From: an uncultured Pseudomonadales bacterium
GTDB lineage: Bacteria > Pseudomonadota > Gammaproteobacteria > Pseudomonadales > Pseudohongiellaceae
Direction: 5' to 3'
NCBI GenBank assembly: GCA_905478195.1
Contig: CAJQHM010000010.1
Location: forward strand, 1-64,000
Length of the DNA stretch: 64,000 bases
The notes below the pieces were generated by a model. That model was not told the DNA's origin. It did no database searches and worked only from the letters and a program-made list of their open reading frames with translations. Below are positions 1,917 through 6,156 of this stretch, piece by piece. A program made the position numbers and the translations under genes. Every line of letters starts with the position of its first letter. The stretch's first letter is position 1.

Positions 1917-3430
1917 TCAGTTAACCGAGCGATCTTGGCCTTCCCAATGGGGAGCGCGCAGCTCCCTCTTCAGGACTTTGCCGGGGCCCGGTTTGGGGAG
2001 AGGTTCTAACTGCACATCCACGCCCTTGGGCACTTTGTAAGTGGCAATGCGCTCGCGGCAAAATTCGATCAGCTGCTCTTTGTCGATCTCATTACCTTCC
2101 CGCGGCACCACGACTGCCCATACGGCTTCTCCCCATTTCTCATCGGGCACGCCAAAGACAGCGACCTCGAGAATGGCAGGGTGTTGATAGAGCATTTTTT
2201 CGACTTCGGTACAGTACACATTTTCGCCACCGTTAACGATCATGTCTTTGCTGCGATCTACTAAAAATACGTAACCCTCGTCATCCATGTAGCCTAAGTC
2301 GCCGGTCCAATAGGCGCCATCTTTAAGCACAGCTGCCGTCTGTTCTTTCTTGTTCCAATAGCCCTGCATCACATTTGGCCCACGCACCACAACCTCGCCA
2401 ATTTCGCCCGCTGGTAGTTCGTCTCCATTGGGGGCGAGTATGTTAATCTCATTGCCTATTGCTGGTCGGCCACAGGATCTTGCTAGCGGAGAATCGATTA
2501 ATTCCTGTTCGTTGGTGAGTATGGTACAAATTGGCGAGAGCTCGGTGGCTCCATAGACTTCAACCAGCTCTGCCGCGGGAAAGGCGGTATGGGTGCGACG
2601 AAGAACTTCTGTGGCTATAGGCGAGCCGCCATGTACAAGCAGTTTTAGGCTGTCTGTCTTGCGCGGGCGTGCATGCTGCTCTTCCGCAATGGCTGCAAGC
2701 ATAGTAGGGACCCCAAGGCTTTCTGTTATGTCGTGGGTCTGTATCAGATCGAGTGCGATCTTGGGATCGAACGCGGCCAGTGTGACCTGGGTTCCCAGTG
2801 TCCAGATATATTGGCGATCACACCATTGGAACCCGCCGCATGAAATAAGGGTGCCATCACCAGCATTAGGTCATCTTCACGCTGTGGGACGGTGGTCATA
2901 TAGTGAAAGGCGTTTGCGATCAGATTGCGGTGGCTAAGCATTACGCCTCTAGACTTACCGGTAGTGCCTCCGGTATAGAAAAGGCCGGCTAGATCCGACT
3001 CTCTGACATCGACGCCCAGTTCTCTCTCTTGCGCCGCGCTGAGCATCGCGTCATAGGCATCGGGAATCAGGATGACATGATTCACGCAGTCGGCTAGTTC
3101 GCCCGGATCTCGGTCGATTAACAAGACCTTGGTCTGCGAGTCTTCTAGCGCATATTTTAATTCGGTGACTGCATGACGCGTGTTGAGAGGAACTACTACC
3201 AGTCCAGCGGCAGGCACTCCCATATAGGTTTCAATCTAGCGCTGGCCGTTACTAGCTAGAATGGCTACTCGGTCACCCTTGTCCAAGCCCAGAGCCAATA
3301 GGCCGCCGGCTAAGAGGCGGCAGCGTCGATGCAATTCGGCAAAATCGATTGACTCGTTGCCATCGATAACAGCAGTCTTGGTCGGAGCCATTCTAGAGGC
3401 GTATCGGAGTGGATCAGCGAAGGTGTGCAT
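1917..3430 (-). pseudogene. Broken AMP-dependent acyl-CoA synthetase (nonsense codon plus frameshift)
   Basis: Three consecutive minus-strand fragments together make one acyl-CoA ligase of about 505 residues, a normal length for the family. The first (from ATG 3428-3430) ends at an in-frame TAG at 3236-3238, after ASNGQR; the reading resumes in the same frame with IETYMGVPAAG. The second holds the AMP-binding loop (YTGGTTGKSRG) and shifts frame near 2805-2812, in an ATATAT run; either a one-base deletion or a two-base insertion restores WTLGTQVTLAAF. The third carries the adenylation core (YGATE, YWTGDLGYMD) and the C-terminal lysine domain (PGPGKVLKREL). Two lesions of different kinds favour true decay over a single sequencing error. 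The ancestral enzyme would have activated a fatty or aromatic acid with ATP and CoA. Confidence 0.88.
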
Positions 3431-3486
3431 GCTTCTAGATCACCATCTCATATTACTTGGATTCAAAGTGTCAGGCGTCGCTTCGT

Positions 3487-5136
3487 TTAGTCATCTTTTA
3501 GGCCGAAGGTATACACCACATTTCCAGATGCAATAGTGACGAACTGCTTTCCATCAACAGCGTATGTCATGGGTGCGGCATGAACTCGTGCGCCCAGGGA
3601 GATATGCCACAGCTCTTCGCCAGTAGCTGCATCCAGAGCGAAGAAATAGCCGTCCGCGCTGCCCGTGAAAACGATCCCGCCTGCTGTAGTTGTAATGCCT
3701 GCCGATGAGCGGGGCATTATTGGAAATTCCCACTCAATCTGTGCGGTTGCAGGGTTGATGGCGCGAATAGAGCTGTGGAATGCGTCCATAGGTTGATTGT
3801 AGCGACCGCCACCACCGGTAAACCGCTCCCCCTCTTCGTAGTCTTCGTCGCGTTTAAAGAATTCTTGTTCGCCGTCGAAAGAGGTCACATAAAATAAACC
3901 GGTCTGCTGGCTGTAGCCGGGGGAGTACCAGTTAGTTGCGCCTACGATAGGAGGAGACACTAGAATGCCCTCGTAGGTCGGTGCCATGCCGGGAACGCGA
4001 ATGGGGCGGCCAGTAGGATCCAGCCCCTGAGCCCAGGTTTGTGATGCATAAGCATCTCCCTCCAGAAACTCACCAGTAGCGCGATCGATAGTGTAGAAGA
4101 AGGCATTGCGGTTCGCCCACATCATTACCTTGCGTGTGCTGCCCTGATATTCAATGTCTGCGAGTATGGGTACTTGGATAGAGTCGTAGTCGTGTACATC
4201 GTGAGGTGTGAATTGAAAGTGCCAGGCGATCTCGCCTGTGTCGCCATCCAGTGCCAGGGCAGAATCTGAATAAAGGTTGTCACCCAGGCGAACGTCTCCA
4301 TTCCAGTCTGGGCCAGGGTTGCCTGTGCCCCAGTAAATCAGGTTCAGATCTGGGTCATAGGAGCCGGTGATCCAGGTGGCTGCGCCGCCTGTTTTCCAGG
4401 AGTCGCCAGACCAGCTGTCGTTGCCGGGCTCACCTGGTCCTGGAATAGCATAGGTGCGCCACTCCAGTTCGCCGGTAGCAGGGTCATAGGCGTCGATGAA
4501 TCCACGGATTCCAAATTCGCCCCCGGCAATTCCGGTTACGACCTTGTCTTTGACAATTAACGGCGCCGCAGTCTTGCTGTATCCAGCCTCGTAGTCAGCC
4601 ACCTCGGTGTCCCAGAGAACATTACCCGTGCGAGCATCTATGGCAACGAGGTGAGCATCGAGGGTGCTCATGAAGAGTGTCTCACCCAATATGGCCACGC
4701 CGCGGTTGTTACGCCCGCAGCAGATGCGTAAATCATCGGGTAGCTCGTGATCATAACGCCAGTACACTCGGCCAGTGCGTGCATCTACAGCGGTCAGATT
4801 ACTGGGTGCCTCGGTAATAAACATAATGCCATCAACCACGGTTGGCACTGTTTCTGCTCGATCTATGACCGGAATCTGGTAAGACCATTTCATCTCGAGT
4901 TCGGCCACGTTGCTCTTGTCGATCTGATCGAGGCGGCTGTAGCGCTGACTGTCCAGAGTGCCGGAGTACATCATCCAGTTCTCGGGTTCATCTTCGGCGT
5001 TGATCAAGCGTTCCCAGGTAACTGGACTAAAAGCCGGCGTGATAACAGTCTGAAACTCGTCTTCCTGCGCGAGAACGGGCAGTGTCAGACCTAAGCCAAG
5101 GCATAGAGGGGCTAGCAGAGCGATGAATCGGTTCAT
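3487..5136 (-). CDS. PQQ-dependent alcohol dehydrogenase (XoxF/ExaF-like quinoprotein)
   Basis: A 549-residue periplasmic quinoprotein with a signal peptide (cleavage probable near residue 23-24, VLAQ|ED). The vicinal cysteine pair of PQQ alcohol dehydrogenases is at Cys139-Cys140 (RICCGRNN). Metal ligands fit Glu207 (GGEFG) and Asn273 (GTGNP). The catalytic base fits Asp316, and Asp318 two residues on gives the D-x-D pattern (HDYDS) seen in lanthanide-dependent members; calcium enzymes lack the second Asp. Repeated DAxTGxxxW blades of the beta-propeller are visible throughout. The ATG has AAGGAG eight bases upstream. It lies two bases after the cytochrome c gene, its likely electron acceptor. 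No haem motif is present, so it is a type I enzyme rather than a quinohaemoprotein. The substrate is an inferred primary alcohol or aldehyde. Confidence 0.92.
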   Translation of the reverse strand: MNRFIALLAPLCLGLGLTLPVLAQEDEFQTVITPAFSPVTWERLINAEDEPENWMMYSGTLDSQRYSRLDQIDKSNVAELEMKWSYQIPVIDRAETVPTVVDGIMFITEAPSNLTAVDARTGRVYWRYDHELPDDLRICCGRNNRGVAILGETLFMSTLDAHLVAIDARTGNVLWDTEVADYEAGYSKTAAPLIVKDKVVTGIAGGEFGIRGFIDAYDPATGELEWRTYAIPGPGEPGNDSWSGDSWKTGGAATWITGSYDPDLNLIYWGTGNPGPDWNGDVRLGDNLYSDSALALDGDTGEIAWHFQFTPHDVHDYDSIQVPILADIEYQGSTRKVMMWANRNAFFYTIDRATGEFLEGDAYASQTWAQGLDPTGRPIRVPGMAPTYEGILVSPPIVGATNWYSPGYSQQTGLFYVTSFDGEQEFFKRDEDYEEGERFTGGGGRYNQPMDAFHSSIRAINPATAQIEWEFPIMPRSSAGITTTAGGIVFTGSADGYFFALDAATGEELWHISLGARVHAAPMTYAVDGKQFVTIASGNVVYTFGLKDD

Positions 5137-5138
5137 GC

Positions 5139-5945
5139 TTAATTCTCCTTTCGCAGTGAAAATAGATAGGCCACGAGGTCGTCTACGTCACTGTCGGATA
5201 AAGTCTGTGTATAACTGGGCATGGTCGATTCTTCGACCCGTTCGATGGAGGCTAGTTGTCTCTTCTGATAAGACCAAAGATTTGATTCGGCATCCATTAT
5301 TCGAAGTGAAAAGCTGTCTTCATTCATGCGCAGCCCCTCTCTTGTGACGCCTTCGTTATCAGTTACGCGCATTGTCCACCAGCGCGGAGCAACCTCTTGA
5401 TGTGGGTCTAGAATATCCGTGAGTAATTCTTCCGGATTACGTCGCTCACCGACGCGAGACAGGTCTGGCCCTAGCCGGCCTCCTTCCCCGTCAATCATGT
5501 GGCAGCTATTGCAGTCACCTCTATTTCTAAACAGTCTGGATCCGGCCACCACGGAGCCGGGCAAATCGATATTCGCAGGGTCTGTGCTGAGAGAGCCTAT
5601 ATAAGCGACGAGTTGCCATACCTGAGAGTCGGGCAGATCGGCGGCTACTGGGAGCATAGCCGTCCCGGGGACCCCCGTGCGGATGATGTTGAAGACGCCT
5701 ACATCTGAGCTGGCTCGAGATAGTCTGCCTGTCAAGTCCGGAGCACCGGTTTCGTCATTGCCCTTTGCATCGAAACCGTGACAGCGTGAGCATTGCCGTT
5801 CGAAGTATTTCAAGCCTGCATTGATGTCGAAGTTCGTGTTGTAGAGATTGCCTGCGTCTTCGGCGGTGCTGGTGCCGACAGTAAAGAGTAGGCAGGAAAT
5901 AGCGACCGTCAGCAGGTATCTGATTTGTATGCTTATACTGCTCAT
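5139..5945 (-). CDS. Di-haem cytochrome c, probable electron acceptor of the PQQ dehydrogenase
   Basis: A 268-residue exported cytochrome with two CxxCH haem sites: CSRCH at residues 52-56 and CNSCH at 145-149. Candidate axial methionines are in GTAMLP and STMPSY. A hydrophobic N-terminal segment (residues 8-25) acts as signal peptide or anchor. I start at ATG 5943-5945, because GAGGAG sits five bases before it; a GTG six bases further upstream is also in frame. The gene is immediately upstream of the PQQ dehydrogenase with a two-base gap, so the two are almost certainly co-transcribed and translationally linked. Haem attachment would depend on the Ccm system, part of which is at the right end of the window. 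The two-domain layout is typical of acceptors for PQQ alcohol dehydrogenases. Confidence 0.9.
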   Translation of the reverse strand: MSSISIQIRYLLTVAISCLLFTVGTSTAEDAGNLYNTNFDINAGLKYFERQCSRCHGFDAKGNDETGAPDLTGRLSRASSDVGVFNIIRTGVPGTAMLPVAADLPDSQVWQLVAYIGSLSTDPANIDLPGSVVAGSRLFRNRGDCNSCHMIDGEGGRLGPDLSRVGERRNPEELLTDILDPHQEVAPRWWTMRVTDNEGVTREGLRMNEDSFSLRIMDAESNLWSYQKRQLASIERVEESTMPSYTQTLSDSDVDDLVAYLFSLRKEN

Positions 5946-6156
5946 GCTCACTCCTCGTTATTATTGTTTGGGTGAGACTCTCTAGTGTAACACCACGGCC
6001 TGATCAAGCAATTGCTAATACCGGTGCAGGATTTCGGCTGAAAGAATGGAAGTAGGCCTATTGAGTCGTGAGAAAATTATACAATTATATGACAAAATTG
6101 TAGTGTTCGTTAAAGAGTAAAACTATACTCGCATGAAATCAAAGCAGGCTTAGAAT

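Follow-up and report, generated by a model that had tools for sequence, protein, structure and literature searches.

The analysed window, a stretch of 64,000 nucleotides from an uncultured Pseudomonadales bacterium, carries on its minus strand a gene for a PQQ-type alcohol dehydrogenase and, directly upstream, a gene for a two-haem c-type cytochrome (Table 1). The two genes are separated by 2 bases. The dehydrogenase scored 578.2 bits against TIGR03075 (PQQ-dependent dehydrogenase, methanol/ethanol family), which exceeds the curated cut-off of 480.05 and places the assignment to this family far above chance. Its N-terminus resembles a signal peptide when judged by eye, and the chain of 549 residues contains no CxxCH motif. 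The cytochrome frame starts either with the GTG at 5951 or with the in-frame ATG at 5945, the latter agreeing with the end given in the initial annotation. It scored 100 bits against TIGR02603 (cut-off 68) and has exactly two CxxCH motifs. A promoter and terminator scan returned no more signals than were found in shuffled sequences.

Table 1. Positions of the two genes and of their haem-binding and active-site residues in the window.
Feature	Position	Strand	Basis
PQQ-type alcohol dehydrogenase, 549 aa	3487..5136	minus	TIGR03075, PF01011
Asp316 (catalytic)-Tyr317-Asp318 (+2 Asp of lanthanide-type enzymes)	4183..4191	minus	sequence and alignment
Asn273, metal ligand position	4318..4320	minus	sequence and alignment
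Glu207, metal ligand position	4516..4518	minus	sequence and alignment
Cys139-Cys140, adjacent cysteine pair	4717..4722	minus	sequence; each Cys kept in 77 of 80 loci (best 80 of 114)
Two-haem c-type cytochrome, about 270 aa, proposed electron acceptor	5139..5951	minus	PF13442 and PF00034, TIGR02603
Haem motif 2, CNSCH	5499..5513	minus	sequence
Haem motif 1, CSRCH	5778..5792	minus	sequence

An acyl-CoA ligase gene directly follows the dehydrogenase in some relatives only, mainly the nearest ones, and therefore no substrate was concluded from the gene neighbours. In the window, this ligase gene (1920-3436, minus strand) is broken in the assembly by a frame change near 2807 and appears as two listed open reading frames, 1917-2702 and 2744-3223, whereas it is a single frame in the near-identical relatives L057 and L058.

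The AF2 model of the dehydrogenase (pLDDT 87.6, 36 aligned rows) was compared with solved structures. The top match was PedH (6zcw; Z 50.2, rmsd 2.0, 506 aligned residues, 40% identity), closely followed by the type II enzymes 1kv9 (Z 48.8) and 1yiq (Z 48.6). Since PedH and the type II enzymes score nearly alike, the fold does not decide on the metal. The enzyme also has the adjacent cysteine pair that we take to be typical of PQQ alcohol dehydrogenases. Among the paralogues of the same genome (L001-L020), the pair was seen in only 3 of the 18 rows covering this stretch, namely in the window enzyme, L005 and L006.

The conservation of the metal site was followed in relatives from one scan of GTDB-species contigs, which found 114 loci, and the best 80 of these were analysed. 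Most of the 80 come from uncultured Pseudomonadales or other Gammaproteobacteria at 77-99% identity, some of them labelled Pseudohongiella, OM182 or SAR86. The next group is mostly acidobacterial, at 50-54% identity apart from a single case of 73%, and a locus labelled Gammaproteobacteria, L126, has a dehydrogenase of 53% identity. Asn273, Asp316, Asp318, Trp255 and Arg343 were invariant in all of the best 80 of 114 loci, and the position of Glu207 was occupied by Glu in 74 and by Asp in 6 of them. The initial annotation had proposed a lanthanide-type metal site in which Asp318, at +2 from the catalytic Asp316, is joined by Glu207 and Asn273. All four residues are in place, and with Asp318 in 80/80 loci the proposal is upheld at the level of the motif, with a qualification that comes from the glucose dehydrogenase Gcd of E. 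coli. In the alignment, Asp316-Tyr317-Asp318 falls on WDFD of PedH and WDYD of XoxF5, as opposed to WDYA of MxaF and WDYT or WDFT of two type II enzymes. The +2 residue is thus Asp in PedH and XoxF5, Ala in MxaF and Thr in 1yiq and 1kv9, the last three of which we take to be calcium enzymes. As a control against over-reading, Gcd was included; its HHDLWDMD has Asp-x-Asp at the same place, and therefore the motif is no proof of lanthanide use. By its motif, Asp at +2 plus Glu and Asn as ligands, the dehydrogenase may be called lanthanide-type, the +2 Asp being suggestive. The motif itself goes back to the contrast between Ser in PedE and Asp in PedH (PMC5487730).

A PQQ enzyme that is not lanthanide-specific and works with calcium (or magnesium) might have the same residues if the +2 Asp were ancestral or structural, as is maybe the case in membrane glucose dehydrogenases. 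Such a reading draws on the Asp-x-Asp of Gcd and on paralogues of the same genome that have the +2 Asp and lack the Glu and Asn ligands. For m-GDH, which has Asp-x-Asp too, a facultative lanthanide dependence is predicted, and Ca, Mg, Zn and Sr can be taken (PMC11996626). However, in the methanol/ethanol branch, of which the window enzyme is a member, Ala or Thr stands at +2 in the three references labelled as calcium enzymes, and Asp in those labelled as lanthanide enzymes. The window enzyme combines all four residues, Glu, Asn, Asp and Asp, and the Asn and both Asp are present in 80/80 loci of the best 80 of 114. We regard an enzyme without preference for lanthanides as unlikely, and lanthanide binding, which we infer from the site, as the better reading.

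The host genome, G000, comprises 141 contigs with a total of 2.97 Mb and is 95.67% complete. TIGR03075 matched it at 40 places, five of them above the cut-off. When pieces were merged and L013 and L017, which have an identical stretch, were counted once, 24 quinoprotein genes covered the active-site stretch; fragments on C24, C29 and C46, where the site is uncovered or a matching frame is missing, fall outside this number. Plain Asp-x-Asp was present in 18 of the 24 genes, and eight of these 18 also keep the Glu and Asn ligands. In three genes (two on C47, one on C92; nearest own paralogue L015), the catalytic Asp is changed to Asn and the +2 Asp is kept, and three genes (on C40, C22 and C29) have inserts in the stretch that make their alignment less sure. 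A calcium-type residue (Ala, Ser or Thr) at +2 was found in none of the 24 genes.

The window had been noted to contain no PQQ synthesis gene, and for pqqE, pqqC and true pqqB this extends to the whole assembly. A search that covered pqqE, pqqC and pqqB, with pqqA and pqqD outside it, did not find pqqE, pqqC or a true pqqB in G000, so these three marks of a PQQ prototroph were not seen in this 95.67% complete assembly. Since the assembly has this completeness and consists of 141 contigs, the operon could have been missed in G000 taken alone. Two matches to pqqB (69 and 48 bits, cut-off 245) lie at contig ends and are 23-28% identical to the PqqB of the genus; they were classified as PqqB-like and not as PqqB. 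These pieces, L206 3-467 on C41 and L205 1495-2088 on C109, look like two halves, with a signal-like N-terminus.

For pqqE and pqqC, the search covered 58 genomes. PqqE was above the cut-off in 15 of them and in 10 of the 37 genomes of the same genus, G000 included, whereas pqqC was found in 16 of the 58 and 11 of the 37, the set being the pqqE genomes and G015. When only the 21 same-genus genomes that are at least 90% complete were considered, pqqC was present in 5 and absent in 16. G024, which is a single contig and 98% complete, is among the same-genus genomes without pqqC. An orthologue of the dehydrogenase, with at least 78% identity, was seen in 31 of the 37 genomes, in G013 only partially. 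It occurs in 8 of the 11 genomes with pqqC and in 23 of the 26 without, and therefore the enzyme is retained without PQQ synthesis. The six genomes without an orthologue include four that are less than 70% complete, and for each of the six the scoring covered only 24 candidates out of 33-79.

Where present, the pqq cluster is patchily distributed in the genus and has the order pqqB-D-E-C (L153 3675-10799, L154 2930-10297, L155 9414-16392). Genes for an MFS transporter and an S9 peptidase stand ahead of it, as seen in the Pfam run on L153. The outer flanks of the operon differ in each of the four genomes compared, as if it had been moved around.

Many Gram-negative PQQ users import the cofactor with PqqU, and PQQ biosynthesis genes are reported for only 23% of the PqqU producers (PMC12124388). 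With E. coli PqqU, the best match in G000 reached 47 bits at 29% identity over 249 residues. The PqqU residue set of PMC12124388, Y/F/W99, R304 and R365, was present in none of the three G000 matches examined, out of 16 first-look candidates, with alignments that are unsure at such low identity. A gene for a TonB-receptor-like protein that weakly matches PqqU lies directly behind pqqC in G025 and G015 (L192 4540-6630, L193 6119-8233), and G000 has a 65% identical orthologue of it (C125:42341-44416), which is a candidate for PQQ or metal uptake. As a PQQ importer this gene was set aside: it lacks the PqqU residues and has no pqq gene beside it in the stretches from G033, G026, G035 and G031. 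Taken together, the gene content suggests that the host likely scavenges PQQ from outside, with no PqqU-type importer recognised among the three matches examined. A contrasting case are the marine TMED127 methylotrophs, for which PQQ biosynthesis and methanol oxidation genes are described in one island (PMC12542740).

The missing pqqE, pqqC and true pqqB would also be expected of an enzyme without PQQ, an "empty" quinoprotein as named in NCBIfam TIGR04528 for Acidobacteria, which would bind another quinone or none. Indeed, the dehydrogenase matched TIGR04528 ("acido-empty-quinoprotein group A") with 514.6 bits, and among the best 80 of 114 loci the nearest relatives beyond the gammaproteobacterial group are mostly acidobacterial. 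However, the TIGR04528 score is below the cut-off of 650 for this family, whereas that for TIGR03075 is above its own. The enzyme keeps Cys139 and Cys140 (each in 77/80 loci of the best 80 of 114), Trp255, Arg343 and the metal site, and orthologues are also found in 8 of the 11 same-genus genomes that have pqqC. Moreover, users of PQQ without the synthesis genes are common, as the figure of 23% for PqqU producers indicates (PMC12124388). An enzyme devoid of PQQ is improbable on these grounds, and we prefer a PQQ enzyme that is supplied with its cofactor from the surroundings.

The initial annotation had paired the dehydrogenase with a cytochrome of two CxxCH sites. Both motifs were confirmed, and 76 of the best 80 of 114 loci have a homologue that either adjoins the dehydrogenase on its upstream side or is fused to it. 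In 75 of the 80, from Gammaproteobacteria and Acidobacteria, the homologous cytochrome gene immediately precedes the dehydrogenase gene on the same strand; six of the 75 were counted by their coordinates, as the script had classed them as "other" where the dehydrogenase frame extends backwards across the cytochrome. A cytochrome match of any sort was obtained for 77 of the 80, with two CxxCH motifs in 74 of the 77 (73 adjacent ones and L126). Of the other matches, L134 has a divergent one-haem cytochrome on the other strand, L136 an adjacent cytochrome with one CxxCH, and in L097 the cytochrome is cut at the contig end. No cytochrome match was found for L130, L132 and L133 among the best 80 of 114 loci.

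L126 is a natural fusion in which the cytochrome and the dehydrogenase share one reading frame of 824 codons. Its haem motifs are at residues 74 and 164, both N-terminal of the dehydrogenase part, and the joining segment has, by eye, no hydrophobic signal-like stretch. An AF2 model of the fusion had a pLDDT of 77.2 and a pTM of 0.65, with an unreliable placing of the two halves. Because the pairing is adjacent across two phyla and fused once, we propose a direct electron transfer between the two proteins, for which this gene arrangement argues.

Within the host genome, paralogous dehydrogenases are also accompanied by two-haem cytochromes, upstream on C132 and C26 and downstream on C22. These cytochromes have 270-282 residues and are 34, 35 and 26% identical, respectively, to the window cytochrome. 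The C83 paralogue has no adjoining cytochrome, and the chain of the C84 paralogue itself contains one CxxCH. An unannotated cytochrome-dehydrogenase frame with a single-haem N-terminal extension was observed on a Sinorhizobium fredii plasmid (L146 4341-6524), and its protein is in the same tree clade as the window enzyme. The 73% identical dehydrogenase in the Acidobacteriota MAG OFTM150 (L106) is found with its cytochrome and reflects either a recent transfer or wrong binning.

A maximum-likelihood tree was calculated with 41 rows, in which the references lack most described PQQ alcohol dehydrogenase types, ExaF itself among them, and own_L006, own_L011, Gcd and Ketogulonicigenium form long branches. 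The window enzyme and its orthologues are inside a clade of 25 rows with a support of 100/99. The other members of this clade are the acidobacterial proteins, the own paralogues L003 and L004, the Sinorhizobium fredii protein and L126; none of the characterised enzymes of the small reference set belongs to it, and PedH, the XoxF/MxaF and the type II references are all outside. A grouping with calcium-only enzymes, the result that had been named beforehand as speaking against a lanthanide enzyme, was not obtained. When the group of the window enzyme was constrained to join the PedH group (PedH and three PedH-like plasmid sequences), 93 log-likelihood units were lost (p-AU 1.62e-8), and the constraint with XoxF/MxaF cost 87 units (p-AU 3.57e-9), both tests being run with the tree already seen. 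Membership in the PedH clade was rejected by this test, and membership in XoxF by the test and by the two CxxCH motifs of the partner. The enzyme was also rejected as a type II quinohaemoprotein alcohol dehydrogenase, since these carry a haem c domain within the dehydrogenase chain and the window enzyme has no CxxCH. That the enzyme is merely a divergent PedH/ExaF or XoxF, as the best sequence and structure match to PedH and the common +2 Asp might suggest, is very improbable given the rejected joint clades (tested after the tree was seen) and the two haem motifs of the partner cytochrome. We conclude that the enzyme, lanthanide-type as judged by its motif, is neither XoxF nor PedH and belongs to a clade rich in Acidobacteria.

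In our preferred reading, which we hold to be likely, the two genes encode a periplasmic electron-transfer module, consisting of a PQQ-containing, lanthanide-type dehydrogenase that passes electrons to the two-haem cytochrome, with PQQ coming from outside. The dehydrogenase would bind PQQ and most likely a light lanthanide ion via Glu207, Asn273, Asp316 and the extra Asp318, and Asp316 would serve as the base abstracting the proton of the alcohol (or aldehyde). The two electrons on PQQ would then be transferred singly to the neighbouring cytochrome, which would stand in for the single-haem carriers of the XoxG/PedF type and pass them on towards a terminal oxidase. The bacterium itself is probably no PQQ maker and would take PQQ, like the lanthanide, from its surroundings.

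On a broader scale, we lean towards the view that a widespread marine lineage bases its periplasmic alcohol oxidation on lanthanide-type PQQ enzymes with most members making no PQQ. It would hence rely on its environment for two scarce cofactors, obtaining PQQ from neighbours and rare earths from seawater, and use a distinct two-haem module that is shared with Acidobacteria and was fused at least once. The scope of this two-cofactor reading is one genome for the all-Asp repertoire and 37 genomes for the pqq gap. A PQQ scavenging habit of the host is probable. If these views hold, PQQ would connect its makers and its users in the sea as a shared resource, and the electron acceptor of a large lanthanide-type dehydrogenase branch, for which our reference set has no characterised enzyme, could be tested directly, with L126 offering both parts in one chain.

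The dehydrogenase is of a known enzyme class and falls in a clade for which our reference set contains no characterised member; the module is not a new kind of system. PedH of Pseudomonas putida, which is lanthanide-dependent (PDB 6zcv/6zcw), shares with the window enzyme the fold, the cysteine pair and the Glu/Asn/Asp/Asp set. The two are, however, in separate clades, the partner described here has two haems, and pqqE, pqqC and a true pqqB were not found in the host genome. PedF and XoxG are single-haem carriers. XoxF, which works with XoxG/XoxJ, has the +2 Asp and the metal ligands in common with the window enzyme and differs from it in its clade and in the two-haem partner; an XoxJ-like gene of a Sagittula plasmid gave no match in G000 in a search that had no positive control. 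The type II quinohaemoprotein alcohol dehydrogenases (1kv9, 1yiq) resemble the module in their fold and in that a dehydrogenase and a haem carrier belong together. Their haem is C-terminal, whereas our module carries its haems on a protein of their own or, in the L126 fusion, ahead of the dehydrogenase part, and the +2 residue is Thr in type II and Asp here.

A likeness in gene number is found in fifteen Pseudomonadales UBA9145 and three Acidobacteria genomes, for which unusually many lanthanide-type PQQ dehydrogenases, up to 70 per genome, are reported (Voutsinos et al. 2025, PMC11996626). These repertoires share the motif, and each genome has, like our host, a large number of such genes. The order of its relatives, the motif and the gene number suggest that the host itself belongs to UBA9145. 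The main text of that paper does not mention a cytochrome, an operon, an auxotroph or "PQQ biosynthesis", and among the titles and abstract beginnings of the open-access literature no description of the two-gene module was found. Large lanthanide-type repertoires are thus already published (PMC11996626), and what is added here is the cytochrome partner and the gap in PQQ synthesis.
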